Positions 39,680-60,780 of a stretch of 64,000 nucleotides of DNA are shown here, in pieces. The stretch's first letter is position 1. Each line of letters begins with the position of its first letter. Position numbers and translations under genes: made by a program. The notes beneath the pieces are model-generated. The model had not been told where the DNA came from, ran no database searches, and saw only the letters and a list, made by a program, of their open reading frames with translations. This DNA is from Methanofollis formosanus (GTDB taxonomy: Archaea > Halobacteriota > Methanomicrobia > Methanomicrobiales > Methanofollaceae): contig NZ_CP037968.1 of NCBI RefSeq assembly GCF_019633745.1, positions 124,001 through 188,000 on the forward strand, written 5' to 3'.

Positions 39680-41422
39680 TTACTCCTCTATAAACTCATC
39701 AAGAGTTAAGTTTACCTGCGGAATAGCAATTGATACCTTATGCATCATATCTCCGATTCCTTTTGCTTTTAAAAATACAAATCTATCATCTATGATATGA
39801 CTGAGAACATCACGATACTGTGCCCCCGCAATGACAAGTATTGTATCATAGTTTTTCAGGATAGGCTTGAGACCTTCTTCTACTGAGGGACGAATATTAT
39901 CAACGTCTACCCTGGTTCTCAATACTTTTTCGTACGTGGATATCTGATCATCAGGTTTTAATAAAGCATATTTTGCAGAGATAATCCTGTAATCGTATCC
40001 CATTCTTTCACAATACTCCCGCACTTTCGTGAAAAGTGTCCCAGTATACAAATCTTTGGCAGCAATTGTTCTATATTCCTCGATTTCACACTTATTCTTT
40101 GTACATCCAGTGATTACAAGGACAGACTGGTTTTTCGAGAAACCATCAAGTGTCTCAATATCCTTCCCCAGGTACGTTCGATCCCACTGACTCTCATTAT
40201 TGAGCAACGAATAGAATGATATTGTATTATGGAAACCTCTTCTACGGTTGCGGTTGTTCCCTCTGAAGACGATCGTTTCAATCCCATTTTTCTGGCATAT
40301 CGGACAAGGACACTTCTTCCAGGGTTGATCTCGAAGGGTACGTCGATAATACTCGAGTAGCTCTAGCTTTCCATCATTAACAATAATAAACGTCTCCAAA
40401 ACGTCCATTACATCTTCAAGGATCATTTCGCCACGATCATACGCACGAAGGGCACGGAGACATGCTTGTTCCAGTCCTAGGGTCTTTCTTTGTCCCTCAG
40501 ATTCTTGATTTTTCGAAGATTTATCTTGGGGAACACGTATCGCAGCATATCCTCTCTGTTCTTGGGTGATATAGTTCATCTGACTCGAAGCAGAACTAAG
40601 CCATGCGCGTCTCAGATATGATGCGGAGTCAAAGGCTACGTTTACACCTAGATCTTCCAGTTCTTTCAGTCTGAAAAACAAGTTCGGTCGAGCCACTCCA
40701 AAGAAGTGAAGATATTCCGGTGTTTTATTAGTTTCTTTTATGTCGGCGATGATACGGTCAATCAATGTGACTATTTCAGATGTCTGCGACCGCACGAGGC
40801 CGCCGATTGCCATGTGAGTAATACCGTATTCAAGGAACTTATGGTACATCCTGAGGTAATCATTAATCTCATATCCCTGGACAGATACAAGAAGTTGAAA
40901 ATCATCACGATATTTTTTCTTCCATTCATCGAAGGCTGCTAAACCATTCTGGAATGTGATCTTCATTCGCTCGTCTTTTTTTTCTTTAAATGCTTCTACG
41001 ACGAGATGATCGATACTGACACCATAGTTAAAGCCTAATTCTGAATATATCTCCAGGATATTAGAAGTCTGATATGGCGGAACCTCTTCATTGATATATG
41101 AAAATGCCCCACAGTCAGCCATAATTGGAAATGAATCCGGCAGTCCGAAAAATTGGTGGATTCCTTTTTCTTTTATTGCTGCATATTTCTTCTTATTCTC
41201 TTGAGCTGTGGCTACCGATACCAATACCCCGTCAAAGGGAACATTCTCCACTCCGAGAAGATCCCACATGTACGCATCATTGTTTGGGTCTTCGCGGTGA
41301 AGATTTGAATGAGTATCAGTGAGAAAGTCATATTCGGGATCGACCCGGTCGTCCCAGTCAGGAATAAAGTACCGCATGCTCTTCTTATTATGTGTTGCTA
41401 GTCTGGTTAATACTTTAGACAT
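39680..41422 (-). CDS. dpdA: DpdA-type DNA guanine transglycosylase with C-terminal DUF6884-like domain
   Basis: 580 aa. DpdA enzymes exchange guanine in DNA for a 7-deazaguanine such as preQ0. The N-terminus (MRYFIPDWDDRVDPEYDF, then DGVLVSVA) matches bacterial DpdA as I know it. TGT active-site positions are kept: D103 in MADCGAFSY, D138 in GVSIDHLV, Q182 in VSVQGYE, G207-G208 in AIGGLV, and nucleophile D265 in AFDSASYL. Zinc ligands C371, C373, C376 and H398. Residues ~434-570 are an extra domain (VITGCTKNKCE, KDLYTGTLF, IISAKYALLKPDDQI) of the DUF6884 type. Divergent from the 41498 operon across a 75-bp gap with a palindrome. Confidence 0.88.
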   Translation of the reverse strand: MSKVLTRLATHNKKSMRYFIPDWDDRVDPEYDFLTDTHSNLHREDPNNDAYMWDLLGVENVPFDGVLVSVATAQENKKKYAAIKEKGIHQFFGLPDSFPIMADCGAFSYINEEVPPYQTSNILEIYSELGFNYGVSIDHLVVEAFKEKKDERMKITFQNGLAAFDEWKKKYRDDFQLLVSVQGYEINDYLRMYHKFLEYGITHMAIGGLVRSQTSEIVTLIDRIIADIKETNKTPEYLHFFGVARPNLFFRLKELEDLGVNVAFDSASYLRRAWLSSASSQMNYITQEQRGYAAIRVPQDKSSKNQESEGQRKTLGLEQACLRALRAYDRGEMILEDVMDVLETFIIVNDGKLELLEYYRRTLRDQPWKKCPCPICQKNGIETIVFRGNNRNRRRGFHNTISFYSLLNNESQWDRTYLGKDIETLDGFSKNQSVLVITGCTKNKCEIEEYRTIAAKDLYTGTLFTKVREYCERMGYDYRIISAKYALLKPDDQISTYEKVLRTRVDVDNIRPSVEEGLKPILKNYDTILVIAGAQYRDVLSHIIDDRFVFLKAKGIGDMMHKVSIAIPQVNLTLDEFIEE

Positions 41423-41464
41423 TGGTCTGAAAAGGCTAATTCCAAACCTATTTATCTAATCTCT

Positions 41465-41483
41465 CCGATGAATATCTCATCGG
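41465..41483. promoter_or_regulatory. Operator-like palindrome in the dpdA divergent promoter
   Basis: CCGATGA (41465-41471), 5-base spacer, TCATCGG (41477-41483); perfect 7-bp arms. It lies between the divergent starts of dpdA and the 41498 gene, next to a TATA-like CTATTTATC (41449-41457). A repressor here could control both sides. Confidence 0.6.
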
Positions 41484-41497
41484 TGAGATGATAGTTC

Positions 41498-42304
41498 ATG
41501 CGTCGATCAAATGCTGATCCGAATCGAATGATTCTTGCGATTCACTATATTGGAAAAAATGGTCCTATTTCCAAAGAAAAACTCTTTGATTATCTCACTC
41601 AGTTTTCTGACAAAGAAGAGTTCGAAAAGAAGGGGAAAAAATCTTTAGCTGGTGCGACAACCGATGTCCTCTACAACATAAGGGTTCTCCAGTTTGTTAC
41701 AGGAGATGATAAGAATCTGGTTCTAACATCTTCTCTCACCAATGATCATATCAATCTATATTCTGGAAAACAAGTGTATGCCGCCTATCTCAGTAATGAT
41801 AAAGAGGGTGCGTTGCTCATGCTGCAGACAAACGCACTCTATTATTCACCGGAGATCAGAGATCTAGCTGCATTCATATTCCGCAGAAAAAAACTATCCA
41901 AATCAGACATCGGCATGGAATATGACAGGAAGAATGTTTTCGGACACTCATTCAATCCTTTCACAATTGATACCTCGCTTGTGGAGTTGGAAAGACTTTC
42001 CCTCCTCGAAAAACACAAGATTGGAGAGACTGCTCCCTCATATATCATTGTAAATCTTCACAATCTGATTTTTGCTCAACTTCTCGTTGAGGAATACTGT
42101 GAATTAAAAGATAAAGATGGCACCGTCCCATTACGCTCGATGAAAGAGCGCTTTTCCCTTAAATATAACATGAACTACCCTGAATTTGATGAAAGATTTT
42201 CGATTCTGAAAAATTCACTTCTCCCAGACCTCATTGTCGGTGGAAGTTATGAAAAATTCTCAATCAACATGGATATTGCACAGGAGTTGAACCTCTATGA
42301 GTGA
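41498..42304 (+). CDS. Winged-helix-like protein of the first triad (DpdG-like position)
   Basis: 268 aa, not firmly recognised. The N-terminal 90 residues look like a winged helix (ISKEKLFDYLTQFSDKEEF; LYNIRVLQFV). The C-terminal 70 residues (VPLRSMKERFSLKYNMNYPEFDERFSILKNSLLPDLIVGGSY) share their plan with the 56602-57441 protein (VEIPKIREHVCEKLKIQRETFDKKFLDLY). Both precede an AAA ATPase and lie beside a transglycosylase. Size and position fit DpdG of bacterial dpd clusters, an inference. Its stop overlaps the next start by 8 bp, so it is tightly coupled to the ATPase. Confidence 0.7.
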   Translation: MRRSNADPNRMILAIHYIGKNGPISKEKLFDYLTQFSDKEEFEKKGKKSLAGATTDVLYNIRVLQFVTGDDKNLVLTSSLTNDHINLYSGKQVYAAYLSNDKEGALLMLQTNALYYSPEIRDLAAFIFRRKKLSKSDIGMEYDRKNVFGHSFNPFTIDTSLVELERLSLLEKHKIGETAPSYIIVNLHNLIFAQLLVEEYCELKDKDGTVPLRSMKERFSLKYNMNYPEFDERFSILKNSLLPDLIVGGSYEKFSINMDIAQELNLYE

Positions 42305-45300
42305 CCTTGACCTCTCAGACCTTGGACTGAATTCCAACCCCTTTGATACAATCATCGGAGACCAGGAATCCTCAAAAAAATACAGATTGTTCGGACGGGA
42401 AAACCAACTGCAAAAGGCGGAATTCTTCGTAAAAAGAGCCATAAAAGAACAAAGGCAGCAGCGTATGCTGGTGCGAGGAGAGTACGGCACAGGAAAGACT
42501 CATCACCTTCTGCGCCTTCAGGATGAGATTCGCTCGGGGGTCTATGGGGACGGTGCAATCGCGGTCTATCTAGGGAATCTCGGCATCAGTATCAGAAGGT
42601 TTTATGAGAAGTTCATAGAGTCATTTGGCCCATATGCTTCTGATTTTCAGGATACCCTCGCAGATCTCCCTCCCGTAGAACCAGATGACAGCATCGATCA
42701 ATCGTACAAAAAAGAGAGACTCCGTGACAACGTCATCGCCAACATAGAAGAGATTGTCGCCGCCTCCCAGTTAAAGGGTTACACGGGGATATTTCTCCTT
42801 ATCGATGAAGCAGAAGATATTGTTCAATCCAGTGACAATGATGAGATCCAGTACTTCGTCCAGACGTTACTTCATCTTGTCAACTATTTCTCAGGAACCC
42901 CTCTCCATTTCATTATGGGTTTCTCACGAGAGGCTCTTGCAAAAATTACTGTAGTTAATGGGACTGAAACTACTGAAAACAGACTTGGAGATGCATTAAT
43001 ACAGCGTTTTCAGAATAATGACGAAATCGTCCTTGGCTATCTCTCTGAAAAAGACGTGCTGGCCATGGTCCGCGACAGACTCAATAGCTCCAGAGTCACT
43101 CCCAATGATAGTCTCTATCCGCTTCACGAGGGCGTTGTAAATGTTGTTGCACGATTGACCGGGGGCCATCCCAGAGAGATCCTCTCTATCCTGAACAAAG
43201 GCCTCCTATATGCACAAAAAAGTGGAATAAAAGAGGTAGATGGTGGATGTATCCTTTGGGTTCTTGCGACCCACACCTCATTCTTTGATAAGGAGAATGT
43301 GGTCCTTGATATTGGTGCTCTCACCCGGATCACGACTGCAATTCGGGAGAGAGATGAAAATCTCTCTACAGATTTTGAGAGATTACAAGGGAAGTTGATC
43401 GGAGAAGAGGCCGAGATCTCTGTAGATGAATTCAACCGGGATTCGAATCCTGATATATTGACCCAACCGATTCAGGGGATTCGCGTTCTTGAGCGGAAAT
43501 TCAGTGAATATGGTGAGACAACATACGTCATCCATCAGGAGATTAAAAATGAGATCTTCAAGGGAAAAAGATACGACTCTGATATTGAACAAAACCTTGA
43601 TCGTGAATTGATCGAACTGATGCAGAATCCTGAACACTACCAAAGTCAATTGACCAAAGGACTCTGGACTCTGATGCAAAATGAATGGATGGCCGAATAT
43701 AAAACAGATACTTCATGTAGCTCCTATGAAGTAATTGTTGGGAATGTACGTGTGGAGAACTCGCCGACACCGGTGAGTGTGGCGTTTGCAGCCTATAAGG
43801 GCAGAGAGTTCCCGCCTGAATTATATAACGGAATTCTTGATCTCCTTGATAAAAAAGATGCTACAGTTGGGTTTGTACTCTATGAAGGTTTTCACTTTGG
43901 CTCAGATCCAAACTATATAAAATTCAAAAATACCATCAGGAATACTGAAAATCAAAGATTTTTCGAAAATATCTGTTCAGTAGGAGTTCAGGAACTCTCT
44001 GATACCCGGGACACAATGATGGGGATGATCAAACTCCTTGGAAACAGAGAGATCGATGCCATCGAAGAAATTGATACAACTGGACTCTTTGAAACCATCG
44101 GAGCGGATAAGAAGATAACTGAACTGATCGAAGAAAAGGCGATCGCATTCCCTGAAGAAAATCGTCGAAAAACTATCGACTTCCTTGCATCGGAATCCCT
44201 GAAATCATTCTCAATAAAAGAATTAAATAAAAATCTGAACTTGAATTATATCGATAGAGCCTTCATGCAGGGTTTGCAGCATCAACACTTTGTTGAAACT
44301 GAGGGAAGCAGGTGGAAAATCGCCACACTGGACCAGAACCCCCCCTGGAAGTCGATATTTACATTTATTGGCAAAAAATCAAGGGCCACAGCTAGAGAGA
44401 TCTGGGAGTATATCGAGGACAACTATATTGTCCAGACCCCACCCGGAGACGAGATGCGGATGGTTTCCTGGTACCTCGAGATACTGCAAAAACAGAACAT
44501 GATCGCTTCAGAATCAGACCATGGCGAAATATTCCATAAACCAATGGACTTCTCAGGCCAGGTGAACCAGCACCTTGCAACGATTGAAACCGAGCTCGAA
44601 ACCTATCGTGAACTAGTACCTCTTGCCGAGAAGTTCCAGATCTCTGTATCTAATGACAAAAGTGCTATCGCACAATATTCATCAGACCTGGACTCTCTCC
44701 AGGATGAATTTGAATACAATGCACAAAACGTCGAAGAGTGTAAGAATCTCATTGAAACTATTATCGAAAAGCGAAAAAAACTGGATCGAGAAATAAAAAA
44801 CAAAAAAGAAGAATTCACCTCAGGTGTTGACAACAAGAATACCCAGGTAGAACAACTCCTCAAATTGATCAACAGGGGATGCAATGAAGGGTATATTTCT
44901 GAAATTGAGAAAGATGAATGGATCAAAACGCTGAATGATACCATTTCTGACATCGAAGAGGATCTCACATCAGAAGATTATACCCATCTTGTTATAGCAT
45001 CAAACGACATTGATGAACATATTAAGACATACATAAAGCAGATCGACGACAGAAAGAACAGTAAAGAACCTTGCATCGCCTATGCGCAAAGATACAGTAA
45101 CCTAAGCAGTACCTGTGAGAAGACCTTAGCCTCTATGGAAGAAGGGGGATATACAGCTACAGAAAAAAGGACCATTTTTAACGATCTTACTAAACAGTAC
45201 AAAGACAGATATAATCCACTCTTCAACGATGGTAAATTCAATGAAGCCAAAGAATGCATCAAGAAAATCTATACTGAGCTTCAGAATCTCAATCAGGATC

Positions 45301-45653
45301 TAAAGAATATTCATACCCAGTATACTAGTTACTCTAAGCAAATTGAAGAATATCGAACCATTTCTGGAGAAGATACAGGTCTCATCGATATCCTTAAAAA
45401 AGCACAAAATTTCCTTGATGAATGGAATTTTGCCAATGTCGAGATAGAACTAAGGAAATATAATGATCTTCGGACTTCGCGCAAAGAGGTCATCAAGACT
45501 CCTGAAGAAAAACTGTTAGATGATTACGGAGGGCAGATAAAAGTCCCATTCCAGGATATAAAAGGAGTTCATTCTATCGATGAAACTTTTGAGTATATTA
45601 GAAACCTCTATCAAAAGGGGAAAATCTCGGATATCGAGATCAGTTTCAAATAA
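42297..45653 (+). CDS. Large AAA ATPase with coiled coils (DpdH-like)
   Basis: 1118 aa. Starts with DLGLNSNPFDTI, then Walker A GEYGTGKTHH (61-70), Walker B IFLLIDEAED (165-174), and an Orc/Cdc6-like lid with GGHPREIL near residue 290. A middle domain (460-720) is unassigned. Residues ~740-1060 hold long charged coiled coils (ENAQNVEECKNLIETIIEKRKK). The C-terminus (FEYIRNLYQKGKISDIEISF) may dock a partner. Its N-domain is related to the 393-aa ATPase at 55424. A role as motor or DNA-sensing switch of the restriction arm (DpdH or Brx-type ATPases) is inferred. Confidence 0.78.
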   Translation: MSDLDLSDLGLNSNPFDTIIGDQESSKKYRLFGRENQLQKAEFFVKRAIKEQRQQRMLVRGEYGTGKTHHLLRLQDEIRSGVYGDGAIAVYLGNLGISIRRFYEKFIESFGPYASDFQDTLADLPPVEPDDSIDQSYKKERLRDNVIANIEEIVAASQLKGYTGIFLLIDEAEDIVQSSDNDEIQYFVQTLLHLVNYFSGTPLHFIMGFSREALAKITVVNGTETTENRLGDALIQRFQNNDEIVLGYLSEKDVLAMVRDRLNSSRVTPNDSLYPLHEGVVNVVARLTGGHPREILSILNKGLLYAQKSGIKEVDGGCILWVLATHTSFFDKENVVLDIGALTRITTAIRERDENLSTDFERLQGKLIGEEAEISVDEFNRDSNPDILTQPIQGIRVLERKFSEYGETTYVIHQEIKNEIFKGKRYDSDIEQNLDRELIELMQNPEHYQSQLTKGLWTLMQNEWMAEYKTDTSCSSYEVIVGNVRVENSPTPVSVAFAAYKGREFPPELYNGILDLLDKKDATVGFVLYEGFHFGSDPNYIKFKNTIRNTENQRFFENICSVGVQELSDTRDTMMGMIKLLGNREIDAIEEIDTTGLFETIGADKKITELIEEKAIAFPEENRRKTIDFLASESLKSFSIKELNKNLNLNYIDRAFMQGLQHQHFVETEGSRWKIATLDQNPPWKSIFTFIGKKSRATAREIWEYIEDNYIVQTPPGDEMRMVSWYLEILQKQNMIASESDHGEIFHKPMDFSGQVNQHLATIETELETYRELVPLAEKFQISVSNDKSAIAQYSSDLDSLQDEFEYNAQNVEECKNLIETIIEKRKKLDREIKNKKEEFTSGVDNKNTQVEQLLKLINRGCNEGYISEIEKDEWIKTLNDTISDIEEDLTSEDYTHLVIASNDIDEHIKTYIKQIDDRKNSKEPCIAYAQRYSNLSSTCEKTLASMEEGGYTATEKRTIFNDLTKQYKDRYNPLFNDGKFNEAKECIKKIYTELQNLNQDLKNIHTQYTSYSKQIEEYRTISGEDTGLIDILKKAQNFLDEWNFANVEIELRKYNDLRTSRKEVIKTPEEKLLDDYGGQIKVPFQDIKGVHSIDETFEYIRNLYQKGKISDIEISFK

Positions 45654-45665
45654 CGTGGTGATCCA

Positions 45666-48236
45666 ATGGACGGCGACATCCTTGAGGACTTTCATGCTTC
45701 CTGGGCTTCATTCTTCAGGAAGAATGACGAATCTCAGGAAAAAAAGGATATCCAATCCCTTAAATATATTCTTTTAAAGTACGTTGAAGATAGAAATGAG
45801 CGGGACATCAATAGAGGGAACTATGATTGTTACGTCCCGATCTGTGACATTCTTCATAATATCAAGGGAACAGACGGGTCTGTCAGGCTCACCTTTCTCG
45901 CCAACCGTTGCGGATTTGATAGTGGTTCTTGCAATGAGAAGGATCTGACAGAGATCTATCATGTGATCATTCTCCAGTGCCTCAGGGAAATGGTCAATGA
46001 TGGGATACTCCTTTATGTATACGATAAACAACGAGTACGGAGTCAGATTGCAGAACTCGTCCGATATTTTTCCTATTTGAAACAGCGTTTTGATGACGAT
46101 TATGAATCGTCACCCGGTCTGACGCAGATGGTAAAACTGCAGACCAAGAGTCGTAAAAGACCAAAACGTGATATACCACTCAAAGACGCACTCCAGACGG
46201 TCTTCAGCGTCAAAGATGAAGTACGGTTGAATGAATCCATCCAGGGCGCTATTCAGGACGGAACATATAAAGAGGCGTTCAAGTGGCTCCGTTTGATGAT
46301 CAGGAGTAACTTTAAAAATAATCCTTCCGATATTTACCTTTCCCGGTTCCAGGTCGAAGGATTCAGAGAGATCTTGAAAGCAGCTATATCGAAGGATTAT
46401 TCATCCGACGATCTCTCATATATCATCCAGTCCAGTACCGGTTCTGGAAAAACCGAGACTTTTCTCTTTCCGATTTTGCTCTATACGTTACTGATGAGCA
46501 AGAAATCAGGCACAAAAGCACTGCTCCTCTACCCGCGGATCGATCTCTGTAATGATCAGGTTCAGCGCCTCCTCCGGTATGTTACAATCATCAATGATTC
46601 TGGACTGCTTGGGAAAAAAGGGATTAAAATTGGCATTCATCACAGTAGGACAGAGGAACTTTCGCTCGCATGTCCATATGATGGATGCACCGGCAAACTG
46701 ATCAAACAGGGTGATGACCGGTTTTTCCGATGTGACCATAACACTGACCATCTCATTAGTTATATTGTCGATAAAACCAAACAGGCTGACATTATCATCT
46801 CAACGCCGGACTCTATACACCGGAGATTGATGGATCAATATGGAAAAAAGAATATCTGGGACGTTAAAGGGACTTTTCCGAAATTTATCGTCTTTGACGA
46901 GGCCCACATTTATTCAAACCAGTCAGGGATGCATGTCGCAAATATCGTACAGAGACTCAGGCATAAGATCAGATCGAAGACGTCATCAGAACCGATATTC
47001 ATTGCATCAAGTGCAACCGTTGGGGCACCTGAAACATTTGCCTGCCAACTCTTCTCGACCGACAGTGCCATGATCATCCGTCCTAGAGATGTAGACCTGG
47101 AGGAAACCGGGCGGGAATATGTGGTTTTTGTTAAAGCCACCAATCCCCGCAAGATCCTGATCCAAAAACCCGGGGAGGAGAAGGAGCGACTCACCATCGC
47201 TACAAACCTTTCAGCGATGATACAGATCGCCTTCTGTTTTTACCACACGATGCTTAAGATGGAAGGGAAGGATAGGATCATCGGATTCGTCGACTCCATT
47301 GATATCATCAAGCGCCTTGGAGACAAACTCTGCGATGCCGAACGGCGGAGGAGACTCTATCAGTTACGGACTCCAGATCAAAAGTTGGGGACGGCTCTGA
47401 ATCGTAACTGTCCTCATGTGGCCTGTGAGACTCTTCCACCAAATCCATACACCAATCGGTGCCGGGCCTATCTCGACGGAGAGTGCTGGTGGACAATGAA
47501 CAACCATGACGCCTCTCCGATGGATATTCAGATCCACAAATCAGGGAACACCTGCAATTGCGAGAATACGGAGGTTGAAACCGACGATTGGGACATAATG
47601 ATCACCACCTCCTCGCTGGAAGTGGGGTTTGATCATCCGGCTATCATTGGAACATTCCAGTACAAGGCCCCGATGAATATCCCAGGATTTGTGCAGAGGA
47701 TCGGACGGGGTGGGCGTTCCCCTTCGGATATGCCTGTCTCCGTCGTTGTGCTTGGATCACACCCCCTCGATACGTTTTACTTCCACCACACCTCGCTTCT
47801 GACAAATCCTGGATCTGATAAACTGGAAATTCCCATCGATCCCGGGAACATGTATATCAAAACCATGCATGTGGTTTCGTTCATCTATGACTATATCAGT
47901 AATCTCTATAAAGATAAGTTATTCCGGTCTCATTACTATAATCTCGATGTGAATGAGACGCTCCAGGCGATTAAGGATGATAAAGACCACATAATTAGAG
48001 ACCACATCATCAGAGAGGTAATAGAAACATTTCAAATCAGCCAAACTGATGCCAACCAGATCCTTGAGTCTCTCTGTGAATATTATCAATCTTTGCTTGA
48101 ACCCATCGAACCTGGACTTGAAGACAGGTCGTTTATCGATCTCTGCCGTTACGACAGAGAGAATCAGGGGCGAGGCATTGAAGAGATCAAAAACGATATT
48201 CTCAGGACAATAGTTCGACTGGAGGGGAAAATATGA
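45666..48236 (+). CDS. DEAH-box helicase, first part of a DpdJ/DrmA-like pair
   Basis: 856 aa superfamily 2 helicase. Walker A STGSGKTET (about 257-265), FIVFDEAHIYSN (DEAH about 411), SSATVGAP, and motif VI FVQRIGRGGRSP (near 677). A Cys insertion between motifs I and II (CPYDGCTGKLI, FFRCDHNTDH) suggests zinc. The closest layouts I know are DrmA of DISARM, DpdJ of dpd clusters and MrfA-like helicases, all with a DUF1998 domain in cis or in trans. Here DUF1998 is in the next gene, which overlaps by 4 bp. Expected to translocate on DNA and drive restriction or unwinding. Confidence 0.85.
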   Translation: MDGDILEDFHASWASFFRKNDESQEKKDIQSLKYILLKYVEDRNERDINRGNYDCYVPICDILHNIKGTDGSVRLTFLANRCGFDSGSCNEKDLTEIYHVIILQCLREMVNDGILLYVYDKQRVRSQIAELVRYFSYLKQRFDDDYESSPGLTQMVKLQTKSRKRPKRDIPLKDALQTVFSVKDEVRLNESIQGAIQDGTYKEAFKWLRLMIRSNFKNNPSDIYLSRFQVEGFREILKAAISKDYSSDDLSYIIQSSTGSGKTETFLFPILLYTLLMSKKSGTKALLLYPRIDLCNDQVQRLLRYVTIINDSGLLGKKGIKIGIHHSRTEELSLACPYDGCTGKLIKQGDDRFFRCDHNTDHLISYIVDKTKQADIIISTPDSIHRRLMDQYGKKNIWDVKGTFPKFIVFDEAHIYSNQSGMHVANIVQRLRHKIRSKTSSEPIFIASSATVGAPETFACQLFSTDSAMIIRPRDVDLEETGREYVVFVKATNPRKILIQKPGEEKERLTIATNLSAMIQIAFCFYHTMLKMEGKDRIIGFVDSIDIIKRLGDKLCDAERRRRLYQLRTPDQKLGTALNRNCPHVACETLPPNPYTNRCRAYLDGECWWTMNNHDASPMDIQIHKSGNTCNCENTEVETDDWDIMITTSSLEVGFDHPAIIGTFQYKAPMNIPGFVQRIGRGGRSPSDMPVSVVVLGSHPLDTFYFHHTSLLTNPGSDKLEIPIDPGNMYIKTMHVVSFIYDYISNLYKDKLFRSHYYNLDVNETLQAIKDDKDHIIRDHIIREVIETFQISQTDANQILESLCEYYQSLLEPIEPGLEDRSFIDLCRYDRENQGRGIEEIKNDILRTIVRLEGKI

Positions 48237-50305: not shown

Positions 50306-53300
50306 TGACTGGAACATATGTTCCCTTTGATAAACTCGTGAAAGAACCAGAGGCATACAAAGAAGAATGGATCCAGAGTAGGGCACGTTTATCGTCACAG
50401 CCCTACCATTCAACAACTCAAGGTGGACCAAAGTATTTGCTGAATCTTGAGGTTCCTTCAGGACACCAACACGACATCAGAATTGCGATCTGGGAACATC
50501 CTCCCTCCTGGCTCCCCTACACCGAAACGTCATCGAAGCTTGTCTCAATTTTCTCAGGTGATGACGAAGAGCATAAAAAAATGTCTCATCTATTCAGTCA
50601 AGGTGAGGAGGTGTTCTTCGAGGGTTATCTAAAATGTTCTTCTGGTATCGTTTGGATAAATGTTGAACGGATTCTTATCGCTCATCCTTCCATCGCGATC
50701 GGGCCCAGAGAGATCATTGGTGCTCTTCATTGCCCGAGGATCTATTATCTTGAATATATCAAGAATACCATGGACAACGTCCTCAAAAGACCTGTGAAAC
50801 ATATCTCCCGAGGCAATGTTGTCCATAGTATCTGCGAACTACTCACTACATCAGGGGAGATCATTCATCTTTCTGAGATGAGAAGTGGAGAAAAAAATAG
50901 GATCTTACGTGAAATCGTAGAACATGAGACGAATACGACATTTCGAATGGATTCTGCTCTCCACCTCCTAGCAGGTACTCCCCTCGATAATGTCCAGAAA
51001 GACATATATTTTCATCTCAAAGATCTCACACAGGACACCGAGGTGGCAGATTTTTTCAGAGGCAAACCTGTCGCCACTGAACGGATGGTCAACCATCTCT
51101 ACGGATTTTCAGGTGTGATCGACTTTTTCGTGAATGGATCTGTTCCGGTAGAACTCAAAACTTCCTCGAATCTTCATGAAGAACACCTGATACAACTCAA
51201 GGTCTACCTCCTTGTGAGTTATCTGGACTCAGGCAATCGCATGGGATATCTCATGTTTTCAAAGTGTGTAAAATCAGGGAGTTCTGGTGAATATCGTCAC
51301 ATCCATCCTGTGGAGTTGACCGATGACGATATCGACACTATCCTGTACGCCCGTCACCGCGTCTTGGTCATGAGGAGGGGGATGCAACTTCCGTCTCCAC
51401 AAGGCATGGATTGTGATGAGTGCAGGTACCGGCATCCCTCTCCCTATTCTCTCCGAAAAATGTATCCAGCATGTTCATTTTACTGTCAGACCGAGCGATA
51501 CTGGGATTGCTATGCGTATGATGAAACTGGCAAGGTAACTGCATTATGCCCCCTTTTTGATGATTGCACACTGAAGTTCTCCTACTTCAACACGGAGATC
51601 ATCGATCATTGGAACAAGATCCGCAAGGCTGTCTCGGCAGAGAACGAAGAACTTGATCTTCTTTTCAGACAGGTCCGCAACCTCACTGATGAGACACTTC
51701 GGATGAGCGGTCAGAAAATTGACAGCCTGAAACTCACGAAACTATCAGATCAGGTCTGTGTCTTTGGATCAGATGAGGCTCTCCCGTGCCTCGACTGTAT
51801 TCCCGGCGAACGAGTTAATATATCCACAGAGGATGGAAAACACACCTATTCTGGAACATTGACCCAGATCGGGCTCAATGATCTCCATGTTCTCTTCGGA
51901 GGCACTCCCTGTGAAGATTTCTTTACATCATCCGGATATGCTCTTTCCAAGGATTATTCTGAGAAATGGATCATGCGATATCTGCTCAGAGTGATCGACT
52001 ATACAGAGCGCAACATGCGGGAGATGAGACTCTCCTCCGGTTCCCGGAATAAAATTCTCGAAAAACGTGCAGTCAAAGAGTATAATTCAAAGGATGTAGC
52101 CGACGATCTCTTTAGAAAACGTCTGGTTGCACTCCATTCCCCATCCCAGACATCTGACGTCAGACGATGTGTAGAAGTTCTTGCACATCTCTCTCAAAAA
52201 TTCTCAATTCTTGTTGTTTTAAGGAATAGATCTGAAATAGAGGGTTTTATTGGACTTTATCCCAAGAAACACGATATTCTCATTGTTGATCGAGAAGAAG
52301 AGTTCCCTCCAGAACCCAGGGTCTGTGAGATCGGAAACAAAAATTCACCCAAAGATATTCAGGACAAAATTTCTTTGTCACGTTTGATAGTAACCGATAT
52401 CGGATTTCTTCAACGTTCTCATTTCTTTGAGTTTCTTTCAGACCCTGAAAGACGGCATTACTTTGATTATGTGTTTGCAACAGGCGCCGAACAATTTTTT
52501 GAGCCAGTATTCTACTATATCAAAAATCTCGGATATTCAACGCTTCTTATCGGCGATGCATTCAGAATGTCATATCCGGTGAGGAGTCGAGAGGCACGAA
52601 CACTCGGACTTGGAGAAAGACCCTTTGAACGACTCATCCTCTATGATTCATTTTTTGAGTCACAGGATTATGCAATCTACCACGAGCCCTTCAAGCGACT
52701 CCCGGGAAGTGTGATTCAAGCCTTCGATAAGATCGATTCGGAGATATCTTCTGAGCGGATCGATGGGAACCTCACATTCGTCGATGTAAAGGGACATGAG
52801 AAGGGAGTGTCTCGTGTCGACTGTCTCTATCAGATCTGCATGGGGAATGAACCGATGAAGTACCAGATGGTCATTGAACCAGACCGTATTCTGGATGCTA
52901 CAATGATAGAGGCACTCATTGAAAACCTTCCAAAATATTCCATCAAAGACTACAGCACTGGAAGTTCGTTCTCAGTTGGAGAGTGTTCATATACGGTTGT
53001 TCGGATTGATCCACTCGGGAACATGAATGCGTCGGATCCGAAGGAAAATGTCTCTCTTGTGATCCGCATTCCTATCTCATTGTCCGAAACTCTTCAAGAA
53101 CTGCTTTATTCAAACGAAGAGGAAGCAGATGAGGTCGTTGCGCTTCTGAAGGCGATGTCCACCGATGAGCGGGAAGAGACAGTTGTCATCACCCCATCTA
53201 TTTCTCAGGCCTCGCTTCTGAAGGAGAAGTTGTACACCAACAAGATCAGCGATGTGTCTGTATGGCTCCCCTTCCAGATCAGTGGCCGGAGTTTCCGTTC

Positions 53301-53493
53301 ATGCATTCTCTCTCTTGTGAGTGCGAACTCAGAACGGGTCATCAGATCCCCATTGACAGACCCTCGTCTGCTGTACACGATGTTCACCTCCGCCGAAGAG
53401 AATCTCATTGTTGTCGGCAATAAAGATACAATTGAACAGAATAGATTGATTGCAGAGATTATTTCTAAAAATTGCATTCAGGATGGGGTATAA
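50305..53493 (+). CDS. Cas4-like nuclease fused to an inactive SF1 helicase (Dna2-like)
   Basis: 1062 aa. Residues ~130-410 are a Fe-S PD-(D/E)XK nuclease: C143 in LHCPRIYYLEYI, H174 in GNVVHSICE, D273 in GVIDFF, E283 and K285 in PVELKTS, QLKVYLL, then CDECRYRH (370-373), C390 and C394. Residues ~600-1060 follow the Dna2/Upf1 helicase order but lack the ATPase residues: the P-loop position reads HSPSQTSDV (611-619), the DEAS box reads ATGAE, while LLIGDAFRMSYP, VVITPSISQA, ISGRSFRSCILSLVSAN and IVVGN stay recognisable. The nuclease looks active and the helicase does not. It starts in the last base of the previous stop. Confidence 0.8.
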   Translation: MTGTYVPFDKLVKEPEAYKEEWIQSRARLSSQPYHSTTQGGPKYLLNLEVPSGHQHDIRIAIWEHPPSWLPYTETSSKLVSIFSGDDEEHKKMSHLFSQGEEVFFEGYLKCSSGIVWINVERILIAHPSIAIGPREIIGALHCPRIYYLEYIKNTMDNVLKRPVKHISRGNVVHSICELLTTSGEIIHLSEMRSGEKNRILREIVEHETNTTFRMDSALHLLAGTPLDNVQKDIYFHLKDLTQDTEVADFFRGKPVATERMVNHLYGFSGVIDFFVNGSVPVELKTSSNLHEEHLIQLKVYLLVSYLDSGNRMGYLMFSKCVKSGSSGEYRHIHPVELTDDDIDTILYARHRVLVMRRGMQLPSPQGMDCDECRYRHPSPYSLRKMYPACSFYCQTERYWDCYAYDETGKVTALCPLFDDCTLKFSYFNTEIIDHWNKIRKAVSAENEELDLLFRQVRNLTDETLRMSGQKIDSLKLTKLSDQVCVFGSDEALPCLDCIPGERVNISTEDGKHTYSGTLTQIGLNDLHVLFGGTPCEDFFTSSGYALSKDYSEKWIMRYLLRVIDYTERNMREMRLSSGSRNKILEKRAVKEYNSKDVADDLFRKRLVALHSPSQTSDVRRCVEVLAHLSQKFSILVVLRNRSEIEGFIGLYPKKHDILIVDREEEFPPEPRVCEIGNKNSPKDIQDKISLSRLIVTDIGFLQRSHFFEFLSDPERRHYFDYVFATGAEQFFEPVFYYIKNLGYSTLLIGDAFRMSYPVRSREARTLGLGERPFERLILYDSFFESQDYAIYHEPFKRLPGSVIQAFDKIDSEISSERIDGNLTFVDVKGHEKGVSRVDCLYQICMGNEPMKYQMVIEPDRILDATMIEALIENLPKYSIKDYSTGSSFSVGECSYTVVRIDPLGNMNASDPKENVSLVIRIPISLSETLQELLYSNEEEADEVVALLKAMSTDEREETVVITPSISQASLLKEKLYTNKISDVSVWLPFQISGRSFRSCILSLVSANSERVIRSPLTDPRLLYTMFTSAEENLIVVGNKDTIEQNRLIAEIISKNCIQDGV

Positions 53494-53675
53494 TGCCTTT
53501 TCATATTTCAGAATGGAACAGAGATATTGTGATGTTAATCAAAGATGATCCGATGGACTGGAATCAGCGAATCCGTTGTTCAATATTGGAACAGAAGGAG
53601 AACATTTACCGCAATCACAGGCGATTTAGATGTCATCCCTATCTTTTTCTTGTTCAGGAGGCAATTGATGTATAG
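53493..53675 (+). CDS. 60-aa coupled small protein
   Basis: The ATG shares its A with the preceding TAA stop (TAATG), a classic coupled start. The product is basic and aromatic (HISEWNRDIVMLIKDDPMDWNQ, then RNHRRFRCHPYLF). No family recognised. The exact junction and clean frame suggest a real small subunit of the operon rather than chance. It could be an inhibitor or assembly factor of the nuclease protein. Confidence 0.5.
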   Translation: MPFHISEWNRDIVMLIKDDPMDWNQRIRCSILEQKENIYRNHRRFRCHPYLFLVQEAIDV

Positions 53676-53756
53676 TAGCAGAAAATAAACCTCTAGAAGA
53701 GTTGAAACAAATCAGAAATTATTGTCACTATATACATTGTTAAACTGGTGATTTAG

Positions 53757-55274
53757 GTGAATGTCTCTATCAGCGAACAGCAGATGAAAGATTTGATTGA
53801 TTCTCAGCAGGTAATCTCAAACGGTCGTCTTGTGAGTCATTTTAAATCCTTTGATCCAAACAGTTATCGGATTCTTGAGCGACCCCTTGTTCAACTGCTT
53901 ATTGATGATCTGATAGCAGGTTCGTGGACCGTTGAAGAGCTTGCATCAAAATATGGAATACAGAAACAAGATGTTAGAAAAATAGTCAATCCACTCATGG
54001 GCGATGTTGCAGCATTTGACGGTGGATATATCCCCCTTCGAACTGCTTACAATGATCCAAACGGGGGCCATAGGAAATATAGGTTTTCACTCATTCCTAT
54101 CCCTATTCGAGGCCGTATTTTTGACCCCACACTTGGATTTAGCCTCTTAAAATGGTCCGAGTTTCTAAATGATGAAGACAAATCCAGTACCACTCCATAT
54201 GAAATCCAAAAAGAAGCATTCTTTCAGAATTTAACCTTATATTGGGGGATTCCAGAAGATATAATTCTGAAACATTTCAATTCTGAAAAGACATTCTTTG
54301 TTGACACCTTATATGGACCCCTCCCTGTGCTCAGCGATCGTACACTCTATCAACAGATATGGGATAAATTTACAGATACAGCAGATATTTTGGCAAGAAA
54401 ATATGGCCATCGGAATTTAAAAACCGAATATCAATACTACCAGGCATTTTTGAGTCAAGGCCTGGGTTCGATACCTGATCTTCAGTATTGTGTTGTAAAT
54501 CTTTGCAATACAATGAATTATTGCAGATATCATGGCCTTGGGGCCGAGTATTCGCGATTTCAGAAAGTCAACAAGTGTCTCTTCAAAATGATCACTCTGA
54601 ATCTAGATGCGAGTTCACTTCCCCGAGCTAATTTTACACATAGAAAAACAGAGACGATAAGAAAAAGCAAAAATCTGAAATATCCAAAGAAAGTTCAGAA
54701 AAAAACGGTTCACAAGAAGTCAACCCCGACCAAAACATCAAAAAAATACATTCAAAACGAGTTAGTTCCAACTAAGAACTCAAATAAATATCACACAAAA
54801 GAAGACCCTGATTCAAAAATCAATTCAATCATCCCGTCTCTCCACTCCTCAGATCCTTTAGTCCAGATCAGAGCCATAAAAAAACTATCCCTCATGAAAA
54901 ACGATAAATCTCTGAGTTTATTGCACAAAGTCGCATTGAGATACACTCAGTCAGTCGCGGTCTGTGCAACCACTTCTATTAAATCGTTCCCTTTTTCCCG
55001 TACGTCCGAGGTACTTGCTGATATTCTGCAATCCACCCCACATCCTAAGGCCCGCGTAATTGCCGCACAGGCTTTGTCTGATCAGAACACTCCAGCGTCG
55101 ATCATGGCCCTTGAAAAGGGACTTTCAGATTCTAATGTTCTGGTTCGAGAGGAATGTGTTCGATCTTTGGGAGTGATTGGTAGTCCACAGGCTGTTGCGA
55201 TTCTTCAAACTCATCTTAATAAGGAACAAATGGAGATTGTTAGAGGGGAGATTGAGAGGATTCTGAACCAATAG
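53757..55274 (+). CDS. HEAT-repeat protein with basic linker
   Basis: 505 aa, GTG start at 53757. The N-terminal 280 residues are unassigned but include a helix-turn-helix-like segment (SWTVEELASKYGIQKQDVRKIV, about 59-80). A Lys/Thr-rich linker follows (295-355). Residues ~365-505 are HEAT-like repeats (SDPLVQIRAIKKLSLMKN; PKARVIAAQALSDQNTPASIMALEKGL; SNVLVREECVRSLGVIGSPQAVAIL). HEAT arrays bind protein or DNA. It closes the plus-strand operon and faces the second triad. No named family known to me. Confidence 0.75.
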   Translation: MNVSISEQQMKDLIDSQQVISNGRLVSHFKSFDPNSYRILERPLVQLLIDDLIAGSWTVEELASKYGIQKQDVRKIVNPLMGDVAAFDGGYIPLRTAYNDPNGGHRKYRFSLIPIPIRGRIFDPTLGFSLLKWSEFLNDEDKSSTTPYEIQKEAFFQNLTLYWGIPEDIILKHFNSEKTFFVDTLYGPLPVLSDRTLYQQIWDKFTDTADILARKYGHRNLKTEYQYYQAFLSQGLGSIPDLQYCVVNLCNTMNYCRYHGLGAEYSRFQKVNKCLFKMITLNLDASSLPRANFTHRKTETIRKSKNLKYPKKVQKKTVHKKSTPTKTSKKYIQNELVPTKNSNKYHTKEDPDSKINSIIPSLHSSDPLVQIRAIKKLSLMKNDKSLSLLHKVALRYTQSVAVCATTSIKSFPFSRTSEVLADILQSTPHPKARVIAAQALSDQNTPASIMALEKGLSDSNVLVREECVRSLGVIGSPQAVAILQTHLNKEQMEIVRGEIERILNQ

Positions 55275-55423
55275 ATATTAATATTGGATCTGAAACACAT
55301 CAGATCCAAAACAGGCGATATAACACGCCCTCTCCCATCTCATATGGATCATCATTCCTTTTTTCTCGTCGTATTTTCAACGGACTGCTCTCATTGGGAT
55401 TCATGGTTGATTCACCAGATTTA

Positions 55424-56605
55424 TCATATCTCGTCTATACCTTCAAACACTCCCAGATCAACACACTTCATCTCATGCAAAAGAGCCTCATCGATCGCCT
55501 GACCACATATCGTAATGATCCGCCGCGCGTTCCCGTTCCCCTCTATGAATATCCTCTGGATACTTTCCTCTGTGAATGGCTCGATCGAATCGGAGGGGGC
55601 GGTTCTGCAGGTGTTGAGGTATTCTGTGACCATGTAGGTGACCGAATGTTTATCCAGCGGTTTTAAGTTGGCTTCTTTTGCGATACGATCTGAAAATGCA
55701 TGATATTCGGCAACAAGGGTTTCCCAGACCTCGGGTGCACACGCGATAATCACAGAGAGCCCTGTCGGATTGACATCGATCAAATGCCGGAGAGAATTAA
55801 GCATATTCTGTTTTGTCCGTGCCTGAAGCGTCTCGATAAATTCAAACTCGTCGATGAGCATGATCACAGGCGAGTGATTGATCTGCTCCAAGGTTGTTTT
55901 TAATGCAATAAATGCACGCTGGGCATGATTTGCAGTGATGTTCGAGGTCAGATGCAGTTCTCTCCGACGTGAATACTCAATCGCCTCTCCACTCAACCAC
56001 TCCCAGGATGTATACGCGTTTTCTTCATATGCAAGGTTCAAAAATGCCCGGGAAAAGTCGGGGTACTTTGTCAATTCAGAGAGGAGGACATAAGCCTGAG
56101 GAACGATATCTGAAAGCAGAACTTTCCCTCTCTCAACGGCTCGCCACCCCATTCCAGGCTCGATGTCTTCTTCGATCTTGCCATTTTTCGAGAGTTCTTC
56201 TGAAACTTTCGCGATATATTCCCTTGAACACTCTCGAAGATAGGTCGAACCAAGATCGTAGATGAAATCTCTATAGATATCCCAGAAAGACTCACCCGGT
56301 TGAGCAACATAACCCGTGACCGGTTTGAGGACTGAATTTTCACAAAATTGATCCCTGATCTGAGCCTGAATATATTTCAGTGTGTGGCTCTTCCCGTTGC
56401 CATAGGATCCTGTAAGGATAAGGTGATTTGACTGTCCAGTCGATATCACGGAAGAGAGTACATTGCTAACCTTGTCCATCACTTCTTGCTGGCCAACATA
56501 TATGTCCGGAACTTGCTCCGGTATTCCCGAATAGGGGAATGGATTCGCATTTAACCCAAAGATCGTGTAATCCTTCTTAGATGTGACAATATTCAAATTA
56601 TTCAT
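55424..56605 (-). CDS. AAA ATPase of the second triad
   Basis: 393 aa, Orc/Cdc6-like AAA fold. It opens with IFGLNANPFPYSGIPEQ, similar to the LNSNPFDTI opening of the 42297 ATPase. Walker A TGSYGNGKSHT (65-75), Walker B VIMLIDEFEFI (near 247), and GNARRIITICGQAIDEAL at the lid. It lacks the long middle and coiled-coil parts of the 42297 protein. Overlaps the upstream gene by 4 bp. Best read as the ATPase dedicated to the second transglycosylase, perhaps supplying the ATP step that DpdB gives in bacteria; that is inference. Confidence 0.82.
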   Translation of the reverse strand: MNNLNIVTSKKDYTIFGLNANPFPYSGIPEQVPDIYVGQQEVMDKVSNVLSSVISTGQSNHLILTGSYGNGKSHTLKYIQAQIRDQFCENSVLKPVTGYVAQPGESFWDIYRDFIYDLGSTYLRECSREYIAKVSEELSKNGKIEEDIEPGMGWRAVERGKVLLSDIVPQAYVLLSELTKYPDFSRAFLNLAYEENAYTSWEWLSGEAIEYSRRRELHLTSNITANHAQRAFIALKTTLEQINHSPVIMLIDEFEFIETLQARTKQNMLNSLRHLIDVNPTGLSVIIACAPEVWETLVAEYHAFSDRIAKEANLKPLDKHSVTYMVTEYLNTCRTAPSDSIEPFTEESIQRIFIEGNGNARRIITICGQAIDEALLHEMKCVDLGVFEGIDEI

Positions 56606-57441
56606 GATAAATCCCTCTTATGAATGGCAAGGTAATAGTACTGCCTTCTTCCGCACTCGATCCCGTTTAAATACTGATCAGAGGTGAGTTCCATCGTGAT
56701 TCTATCAGGCATCTCTGAAAAGTTGACCGACTTTATCTTCTTATCAGATTTTTTTGCGTGCGTTGTGATGGGTGCTCCAGATAATTCCAATCTTCCAATA
56801 TTCTTTACATAGAGGTCTAAAAATTTTTTATCGAATGTTTCTCTTTGAATTTTTAATTTTTCACATACGTGTTCCCTGATCTTCGGGATCTCAACATATC
56901 GCTGTTTTAGGTTTCCGACCCCTGATCGGTTGAGTTCGTCGTAGATGTTCAACAATGCCACGGTGAAGGACTCATTTGTGTCATCTATAGCATAGTAATG
57001 ATTGTTGAACACATTCTGCTGAATTGTTCCGACCCGTAATGTCAAGTCTGATATATATTGGAGAGTCGCTGAATTAAAGTTGAAATATTCATCTGAGATG
57101 AGGTTAGGGAGGTTGTTTAATTCGATCGGCCCATATTTCCTAACTCCATAATAGAATGTGGCATAGTGTGGATATCCCATCATTATCTGGTGAACAGTTC
57201 TCCAATCATCTTCTCTGATGGCCTGTACGAATTTTATTGTTGTGGCTGTTTTTTTGAAATGATCCTCATTCTGCAATATAAGGTCCATTCTAGCCATTTC
57301 CCGGAGGATCTCCTTTGATCGGTCCATTGAAACGCCCAAATGTTCCTGTAGTTGACTATATGATGTCTCCTGTTCTTGCACCACATAGAACGCTGTCTCG
57401 ACAACTTTGCTAAATGTTACAAGGCGCGCACTCTTCCTCAT
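56602..57441 (-). CDS. Winged-helix-like protein of the second triad
   Basis: 279 aa, no firm family. N-terminal winged-helix look (TSYSQLQEHLGVSMDRSKEILREMARMDLI, about 26-55). The C-terminal region IPKIREHVCEKLKIQRETFDKKFL parallels the 41498 protein. ATGA overlaps on both sides join it to the transglycosylase upstream and the ATPase downstream. It may choose the DNA sites to be modified or link the enzyme to the ATPase. Confidence 0.68.
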   Translation of the reverse strand: MRKSARLVTFSKVVETAFYVVQEQETSYSQLQEHLGVSMDRSKEILREMARMDLILQNEDHFKKTATTIKFVQAIREDDWRTVHQIMMGYPHYATFYYGVRKYGPIELNNLPNLISDEYFNFNSATLQYISDLTLRVGTIQQNVFNNHYYAIDDTNESFTVALLNIYDELNRSGVGNLKQRYVEIPKIREHVCEKLKIQRETFDKKFLDLYVKNIGRLELSGAPITTHAKKSDKKIKSVNFSEMPDRITMELTSDQYLNGIECGRRQYYYLAIHKRDLS

Positions 57442-58475
57442 ACCAGACCTCTCTTTTTTGCTTTAGCATATCGGAAGGCCTCGTACATTGCTGGACTGTT
57501 CATAAATCGTTTCTCTAGATACTGTTCAACCTCATTCTCTTCGATTGCCATTTTTAATTTCCGGATCTCATGTGTAATCATCCAGAGATTGTGCATTCCG
57601 ATGAGTTTTCTTTCAGAGCGTACTTCTTCATAGGGGTGTATGCTACAGATTGGACACGTACAGGGAAGGTACGTTGTCTCAGGAATATCTGAGAACTCTA
57701 TAGATCCGTTGCCGGGCATATAGTAGAGGCGTTTAGATCCAGCCTTGAGAAAAGCAGATGAATCAAATGTATCAGCCCCCATATAGACCATGAGTGGAAT
57801 CATTGTTGGACCCCCCAGGCCAAAAACATGCAGTGGAAGGTCACCAATTCGTTTTCTGACGGCATGTATGATGTCTATGATTGCATGATAGTCCGAACGT
57901 TTGGAAATGCATCCACCGATGGCAAAACCATCAAAGTTACCTCTTTTCTTTAGATAATCGATAGTATTCATCATCATTATAGGATCGTTCCCCTGTAATG
58001 ATGCATATATGAGCATATCTTCACGTTCTCGATTATCAAGAGCAATAAGTGCATTTTTAACAGATATTTTTACAGCATCAGAATATTTCTGATTATAGAT
58101 ACAATCTTTAGCAAATACCGGCAGATCCAGTGTCGCAGCAATATCGGCGCCAACATTCTCCTGAACTCTAAGCATTTCTATGGGATCAAGAGTCAGATCG
58201 TGATTCTTCTGTTGAAACCCTCCGCTATCGACAAAAAACACCCCATTATTTGAATATTTGTCATGAAGGCCGCCTTCACCCATTTTTTCATACAAAGGAC
58301 TGGAGTAGATAGAATACGCGTTGATCATCATTGTATTCATATCTGGAATCATTTCCCAGTATCTCGGCGTATTCCCCTCCCCTCCTTTTCCTCCGTTATG
58401 GACCGGAAAAAAGGCAGGTGTTTCAAGCTCTCTTGTTGCTGTATCAATAATTCTAATATTCGTCATGCTCGTCAT
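57438..58475 (-). CDS. Second TGT-superfamily transglycosylase (DpdA-like)
   Basis: 345 aa with a full catalytic set: D83 in FVDSGGFQ, D117 in ATLDLPV, Q161 in YASLQGND, G187-G188 in FAIGGCI, nucleophile D238 in TFDSSAF. Zinc ligands C272, C274, C277 and H295 (CTCPICS ... GMHNL). It lacks the C-terminal PUA and other domains of archaeal tRNA arcTGT, and its FDSSAF nucleophile segment is like FDSASY of the first enzyme, not the FDC type of tRNA enzymes. DNA is therefore the likelier substrate. First gene of the minus-strand triad, behind an operator-like palindrome. Confidence 0.82.
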   Translation of the reverse strand: MTSMTNIRIIDTATRELETPAFFPVHNGGKGGEGNTPRYWEMIPDMNTMMINAYSIYSSPLYEKMGEGGLHDKYSNNGVFFVDSGGFQQKNHDLTLDPIEMLRVQENVGADIAATLDLPVFAKDCIYNQKYSDAVKISVKNALIALDNREREDMLIYASLQGNDPIMMMNTIDYLKKRGNFDGFAIGGCISKRSDYHAIIDIIHAVRKRIGDLPLHVFGLGGPTMIPLMVYMGADTFDSSAFLKAGSKRLYYMPGNGSIEFSDIPETTYLPCTCPICSIHPYEEVRSERKLIGMHNLWMITHEIRKLKMAIEENEVEQYLEKRFMNSPAMYEAFRYAKAKKRGLV

Positions 58476-60743: not shown

Positions 60744-60771
60744 AAATTGTTTCCGATTTTTGAAACAATTT
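60744..60771. promoter_or_regulatory. Operator palindrome between CARF regulator and viperin
   Basis: AAATTGTTTC (60744-60753), 8-base spacer, GAAACAATTT (60762-60771). The arms are perfect. It fills almost the whole gap between the divergent genes and sits where leaderless archaeal promoters for both would lie. It is in the right place to be bound by the CARF-winged-helix protein. Confidence 0.75.
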
Positions 60772-60780
60772 CACATCACC

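Follow-up and report, generated by a model that had tools for sequence, protein, structure and literature searches.

The window analysed here is a 64,000-nucleotide stretch (bases 124001-188000) of the 2.97-Mb single-contig genome of the archaeon Methanofollis formosanus, and it carries an island that encodes two guanine transglycosylases (TGTs). One, DpdA580, is a 580-aa protein related to the bacterial enzyme DpdA, with a DUF6884 domain at its C-terminus; the other, TGT345, is a 345-aa protein encoded in a triad with a winged-helix protein (wH279) and an AAA+ ATPase (AAA393). Between them lies a helicase cassette (Table 1). Across the island the G+C content drops from ~60-65% to 40-46%, which is consistent with acquired DNA. 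We consider it very probable that the island is Dpd-like, serves modification and is built on a core with two transglycosylases. An earlier reading of this DNA from its letters alone, here called the original prediction, had proposed two transglycosylases in one 7-deazaguanine DNA-modification island; all ten of its open reading frames were found in place, and its central idea, two enzymes with apparently active sites, is borne out and proves conserved.

The two transglycosylases

DpdA580 scores above the curated threshold of the DpdA model, matches the DNA-guanine transglycosylase of PDB entry 7ui4 at E=1e-58, and groups with bacterial DpdA in our tree with support of 100/100; by sequence it is a true DpdA. 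A profile made from the archaeal DUF6884 recovers both the C-terminus of the 580-aa protein and, in bacterial islands, the gene upstream of dpdA that is DpdC by position, and on this basis we read DpdA580 as a DpdA-DpdC-like fusion. The fused domain would supply the DpdC-type hydratase of dPreQ0, the deoxynucleoside form of 7-cyano-7-deazaguanine (preQ0), that characterizes Dpd systems. In three of the loci read (L108, L112 and L120; G and L numbers denote genomes and loci of our survey) DUF6884 is encoded by a separate gene, and in cyanobacterial dpdA (L126, L127 and L109) a DUF6884/YaaA-like, DpdC-like domain is fused N-terminally, at the opposite end from archaea. Isolated, stop-containing remnants of the DpdA580 C-terminus persist at L077 (G005) and L078 (G119), with 83% and 57% identity, as relics of lost islands.

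TGT345 has a TGT catalytic domain, and its best curated family is TgtA (TIGR00432), whose cut-off it does not reach. Residues D83, D117, Q161, GG187-188 and D238 align column for column with D103, D138, Q182, GG207-208 and D265 of DpdA580, both proteins keep the CxCxxC-H zinc site, and the domain search found a PUA domain in neither; alignment and domain search thus agree with the original prediction on all these points. Asp83, Asp117, Asp238 and the zinc ligands are invariant in all 19 aligned members of the TGT345 family. The position of Gln161 is more variable: this base-contacting residue is Gln in 23 of 23 tRNA enzymes aligned and His in 14 of the 19 family members, as it is in Enterobacter DpdA, phage 9g DpdA and two other phage proteins.

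In a tree of 65 proteins, TGT345 joins its haloarchaeal relatives in a single group (97/93). The archaeal and bacterial tRNA enzymes make up a clade (99/96) that excludes this group, and DpdA is distant from it. Omission of six long branches left intact both the split from DpdA (100/100) and the clade of tRNA enzymes (97/88); the methanogen and haloarchaeal TGT345 proteins may then be either one clade or successive branches. By sequence, TGT345 thus belongs neither with DpdA nor with the ordinary tRNA enzymes: the deepest split of the tree separates it from DpdA and puts it on the side of the tRNA TGTs, yet it lies outside the real tRNA-enzyme clade and below the cut-offs of both TIGR00432 and TIGR00430 (61.5 bits against 306.75). 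The label "DNA-type" given to both enzymes therefore stands for the 580-aa protein and not for the 345-aa one, which reaches 31 bits against NF041059 (cut-off 200). Because TGT345 lies across that split, the case for a DNA role rests on gene context. It shares its catalytic domain with the host's own arcTGT (TgtA; 481 aa, 289 bits), which lies intact elsewhere in the genome for housekeeping, at 27% identity, and differs from arcTGT in having no PUA or other C-terminal domains, in its separate clade, in its sporadic distribution and in its constant operon partners. No member of the TGT345 clade was present in the viral contigs searched; weak phage matches were rejected as relatives, being other TGTs.

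The partners of TGT345

The triad genes are stable in order. TGT345, wH279 and AAA393 are contiguous, in this order, in five of six methanogen relatives, G011 being the exception, and in every haloarchaeal locus read apart from L123 of G401. The AlphaFold2 (AF2) model of wH279 (mean confidence score, pLDDT, 71.6; ~90 over residues 10-110 and low C-terminally) shows two winged helices in tandem. Foldseek aligns it in part with winged-helix structures of the MarR type, of AspA and of SelB; the structure search gave no match below E=1e-3, and wH279 has no Pfam match. AAA393 has intact Walker A (GSYGNGKS) and Walker B (IMLIDE) motifs. We infer that a transglycosylase would need a DNA-binding protein and an ATPase to reach bases in duplex DNA.

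A conserved four-gene core

Among 232 genomes of the order, taken as Methanomicrobiales (locus G161 is a contig of Methanoregula sp. UBA471), the TGT345 clade occurs in seven, DpdA580 in seven, and both in six. DpdA without TGT345 is seen only in G027, an incomplete genome that is uninformative either way because its DpdA sits on a 4-kb contig and its DGQHR protein on another. The seventh TGT345 of the order, in G011 (L043, 17174-19047), belongs to a decayed locus in which TGT345 and wH279 are left and the ATPase and DpdA are gone. Across the phylum (393 genomes), DpdA is found in 13 genomes and TGT345 in 15, and 13 of 13 DpdA genomes have TGT345 (Fisher test, 1.5e-22, with relatedness ignored). 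The TGT345 genomes that have no DpdA are G011 and G401, and in neither is the pair of wH279 and AAA393 seen beside TGT345. The plasmids that carry TGT345, wH279 and AAA393 are one identical set of eight out of 72,556, all of them haloarchaeal, with DpdA in the same island each time. The pairwise identities of the four core genes also correlate (rho 0.73-0.94 in methanogens and 0.63-0.87 in haloarchaea). The two-transglycosylase arrangement is a conserved trait and not an accident, and the two-TGT modification core of archaeal Dpd-like islands is real.

The exchangeable helicase cassette

The original prediction gave each transglycosylase its own triad with a winged-helix protein and an ATPase. 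This holds for TGT345 alone. The supposed partners of DpdA580, wH268 and AAA1118, belong to the effector cassette, because they are found only with the helicase (in the window, L042, L048 and L116), point away from dpdA, and do not occur in islands that keep dpdA and the TGT345 triad. Profile-profile comparison nonetheless relates them to the triad proteins: AAA1118 and AAA393 are clearly homologous (hhalign probability 98.8%, E=1e-16, 307 columns), both open with the predicted LNxNPF, and Walker A and B are intact in both. The shared plan proposed for wH268 and wH279 is retained in part. The two are probably homologous, judging from a weak hhalign match (E=2e-4, 177 columns), and the match lies mid-protein, not at the C-terminus as claimed. 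Comparison of wH268 and AAA1118 with DpdG and DpdH, used as single sequences, gave nothing.

Domain matches confirm the predicted helicase, Cas4-like nuclease and HEAT genes. HEL856 matches the DpdJ model NF041067 over residues 105-787, and is a homologue of half the length, split and below the cut-off. Its second half would be the DUF1998 gene, an assignment drawn from position and sub-threshold matches: a PF09369 match, a weak match to the DpdJ C-terminus, and the reach of the HEL856 profile into it. Walker A is lost from the SF1 helicase-like domain of the Cas4-like protein in three of three homologues, so that this domain is probably inactive or structural.

While the four-gene core is constant, the adjoining helicase/nuclease cassette is exchanged. 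The window, G004 and G062 share the series wH268-AAA1118-helicase-DUF1998-Cas4-HEAT; G120 has a full-length DpdJ-type helicase with a DpdK-like PLD nuclease, a small protein and a large ATPase; and G161 and G216 have a different pair of small protein and ATPase plus a 467-480-aa protein, with a HerA-like translocase in G161. In Haloferax alexandrinus BNX82 and Halobaculum marinum, preQ0 genes accompany the core, and the 25 kb read hold no annotated helicase. Because the core is constant, its neighbours change and some haloarchaeal cores have no helicase annotated nearby, we assign the core to modification and the rest to attack.

A second transglycosylase, possibly in the place of DpdB

Thirty islands were read for DpdB and for a second TGT. 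A second TGT without DpdB is present in 21 (6 methanogen and 13 haloarchaeal islands, Paenibacillus pART37 and Nostoc NIES-3756), DpdB with a single TGT in eight, and neither in one (Acetobacter L166, 31 kb read); DpdB thus occurs in 8 of 9 single-TGT islands, and none of the 30 has both. The premise that a dpd island carries one transglycosylase gives way here, as two are present in all 19 archaeal and in two bacterial islands. PF14072, which recognises real DpdB in a control, has no match anywhere in the host genome, and a dedicated DpdB profile finds none in the island. PF14072 is likewise absent from 16 of 18 genomes tested, the others being G062, with a sub-threshold match, and G027, with one match in a different island type (the DGQHR protein of G027 lies in a DUF499-like island).

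The second TGTs of the bacterial islands, of 307 aa in Paenibacillus pART37 (L110:17182-25036) and 315 aa on the Nostoc NIES-3756 plasmid (L126:9933-18450), fall outside the TGT345 clade on long branches whose exact place is unsure, and were possibly recruited independently. A separate arrangement, with two DpdB genes in the order dpdB-dpdA-dpdB, is seen on the alphaproteobacterial plasmids L163, L164, L165 and L167 and in the faecal phage record MT835580 (L168).

Island boundaries and neighbouring genes

Beyond the genes named in the original prediction, six of seven methanogen islands (those of the window, G004, G062, G161, G216 and G027) have a UvrD helicase and a PD-(D/E)XK nuclease next to DpdA, and we therefore place the start of the island at ~33.6 kb; the counterpart of the nuclease beside dpdA in G004 is 83% identical. 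A small GIY-YIG-like ORF (38275-38646) between UvrD and dpdA has no counterpart in relatives. Beside the island lie a gene for a weakly CARF-like protein (59939-60742; PF23400, E=8e-4) and, divergent from it, a radical SAM gene (60760-61644). An N6-adenine DNA methylase gene upstream (30449-31837) suggests that the region may belong to a wider defence island.

Table 1. Genes of the island, with their window coordinates and the matches behind each assignment.
Feature	Position	Strand	Evidence
TGT345, second transglycosylase, arcTGT-like catalytic domain without PUA	57438..58475	-	PF01702 132.6 bits; TIGR00432 186.7 bits (cut-off 350)
wH279, tandem winged-helix protein, 4-base overlap with TGT345	56602..57441	-	AF2 model, Foldseek
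AAA393, BrxD-like AAA+ ATPase, third triad gene	55424..56605	-	PF10923 48.6 bits; NF033438 53 bits (cut-off 350)
DpdA580, DpdA with fused C-terminal DUF6884 (DpdC-like)	39680..41422	-	NF041059 332 bits (cut-off 200); DUF6884 63 bits
wH268, probable distant wH279 paralogue, first gene of helicase cassette, divergent from dpdA	41498..42304	+	hhalign E=2e-4
AAA1118, AAA+ ATPase paralogous to AAA393, long C-terminal extension	42297..45653	+	hhalign; Walker A GEYGTGKT
HEL856, YprA/DpdJ-type SF2 helicase core	45666..48236	+	NF041067 DpdJ 198 bits (cut-off 800); PADLOC DpdJ 210, DrmA 64
Putative DUF1998/MZB-like second half of DpdJ-type helicase, own gene	48233..50305	+	PF09369 21.2 bits (cut-off 24.2)
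Cas4-like PD-(D/E)XK nuclease with C-terminal SF1 helicase-like domain without Walker A	50305..53493	+	PF12705, PF01930, PF13087
HEAT-repeat protein, last gene of helicase cassette	53757..55274	+	PF13646 66 bits; kept in L042, L048
UvrD helicase	34821..37196	-	PF00580 155 bits
PD-(D/E)XK nuclease paired with UvrD helicase	33600..34808	-	PF12705 50 bits

Comparison with known systems

With bacterial Dpd (DpdA-K) the island has in common DpdA, a DpdC-like DUF6884, a DpdJ-type helicase, and a large ATPase and small protein upstream of the helicase. It differs in that DpdB is not found and a second transglycosylase, a winged helix and a BrxD-like ATPase are present instead; the helicase is split over two genes; a Cas4-like nuclease stands where Dpd has the PLD protein DpdK; and homology to DpdG and DpdH went undetected in the single-sequence comparison. 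The island thus appears Dpd-like by mechanism, and by membership it departs from Dpd in DpdB, the full-length DpdJ and the PLD features.

BRIGADE (Bell et al. 2025, PMC12458937) is likewise archaeal and Dpd-like, with 7-deazaguanine genes; the main text of the preprint defines it by two YprA-like helicases and reports it in halophiles only. The window shares with that definition the combination of Dpd homologues and a PLD or PD-(D/E)XK nuclease (here DpdA and the Cas4-like protein), and differs in its single, split helicase and in belonging to a methanogen order. A BRIGADE-like island of Natronococcus (L108), with two large DEAD helicases and PLD, has the same DpdA and TGT345 triad. The main text of the preprint names no transglycosylase, and the two-TGT core may be drawn in its supplement.

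BREX-Related Capture (BRC; PMC12839542) resembles the island in that winged-helix and ATPase components accompany a TGT and that an NTPase has been proposed to take over from DpdB. It differs in its PglZ, BrxC-like DUF6079 and HerA, none of which was found in the window, and the DpdA/TGT pair is not described for it; the island genes lack the BREX/BRC hallmarks (PglZ and BrxC, and for BRC also HerA/FtsK) and hold the BrxD-like ATPase only. DISARM, which combines DrmA and DrmB with the PLD protein DrmC and a methyltransferase, does not fit either, as HEL856 favours DpdJ over DrmA (Table 1) and the ten island genes include no PLD protein or methyltransferase.

A model for the island and its alternatives

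We think it probable that the island is a Dpd/BRIGADE-like 7-deazaguanine restriction-modification system with a second transglycosylase module in the place of DpdB. In this archaeal system, (i) DpdA580 would swap guanine in host DNA for host-made preQ0; (ii) its fused DpdC-like domain would hydrate the product towards 2'-deoxy-7-amido-7-deazaguanosine (dADG); (iii) TGT345, the tandem winged helix and the BrxD-like ATPase would form a second transglycosylase complex, DpdB's stand-in, in which the winged helix and ATPase load or target both enzymes on DNA and TGT345 acts beside or together with DpdA with its own active site in use; and (iv) DNA without the mark would be attacked by exchangeable cassettes, here wH268, AAA1118, the split DpdJ-like helicase, the Cas4-like nuclease, the HEAT protein and the UvrD/nuclease pair. 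Since the host has its own full-length arcTGT and a QueC homologue, preQ0 should be available; QueC, QueD, QueE and preQ0-transporter genes adjoin many haloarchaeal cores. Of the pieces of this model, the gene content, its conservation and co-occurrence, the catalytic residues and the exclusion of DpdB are observed; that TGT345 works on DNA, which mark is written, that the two enzymes cooperate and that the island restricts are inferred.

For a pair of such enzymes the original prediction had offered two modified bases, two site specificities, or a modifier with a self/non-self reader, any of which may hold. That DpdB and a second TGT exclude each other in the islands read suggests, ahead of these, that the second TGT is a helper or partner. 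Because of this exclusion, replacement of DpdB by the TGT345 triad is the most economical reading, to which we give an even chance. DpdB is regarded as the ATPase for insertion, yet it is dispensable in some Dpd clusters, and the NTPase of BRC systems has been proposed as its substitute (PMC12839542). Several points weigh on the other side. L166 implies that DpdA does not always need a helper; the exclusion rests on 30 islands, many of them related, and the 19 archaeal ones may amount to one or two events; the ATPase and winged helix could serve restriction and not modification; and the nearer relatives of TGT345 are the tRNA TGTs and not DpdA, which leaves room for a tRNA substrate.

An alternative that we consider unlikely, though it deserves weight, is that the enzymes write two independent marks, each inserting 7-deazaguanine at its own sites or strands under different guide proteins, with DUF6884 converting the DpdA product alone. 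Both active sites are intact, TGT345 has its own DNA-binding protein and ATPase, and DUF6884 is fused to or beside DpdA and not TGT345, all of which would suit two marks; the constant company that DpdA keeps with TGT345 (13 of 13 genomes) favours dependence. Only tentatively, we raise the related possibility that TGT345 founds a third lineage of DNA transglycosylases, in which an arcTGT-like enzyme is redirected to DNA by a winged-helix/AAA+ loader and adds another 7-deazaguanine mark that differs from the first in chemistry or in position. If this is true, archaeal genomes with the TGT345/DpdA core bear two interlocked deazaguanine signals.

It is improbable that the substrate of TGT345 is tRNA or some other RNA, with the enzyme serving, for instance, as a conditional effector that changes tRNA during infection. 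Its affinity to TgtA and its side of the tree would fit such a role, but its position outside the clade of 23 tRNA enzymes (97/88), the missing PUA, the frequent DpdA-like His in place of Gln, the constant winged-helix partner and the almost invariable presence of DpdA speak against it.

We hold it quite improbable that the triad reads or erases the mark, with TGT345 recognising or removing 7-deazaguanine for self/non-self discrimination. Transglycosylases can bind both modified and unmodified bases, which would suit this role. The ATPase and winged helix also resemble sensor modules of BREX-like systems (PMC12839542). However, a reader should follow the effector, and the triad instead accompanies DpdA through exchanges of the effector cassette and is kept in haloarchaeal cores that have no helicase close by.

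The two gene sets of the window flank the helicase cassette, one to each side, which might suggest that a dpd island and an unrelated TGT operon came together by chance within a single defence island. This reading is rejected on co-occurrence (13 of 13 DpdA genomes and 8 of 8 plasmids), adjacency in haloarchaea and correlated divergence.

Significance

These comparisons correct the single-transglycosylase picture of dpd islands, extend a BRIGADE-like core from halophiles to methanogens, and tell the constant genes of the modification core apart from the exchangeable genes of the effector cassettes. How a transglycosylase that evolved on tRNA comes to act on double-stranded DNA is a standing problem, for which bacteria use the poorly understood DpdB. 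The archaeal core, with no DpdB and with a complete second transglycosylase, a winged helix and an AAA+ ATPase, would be a natural alternative solution, and it offers a clean genetic test in tractable haloarchaea.

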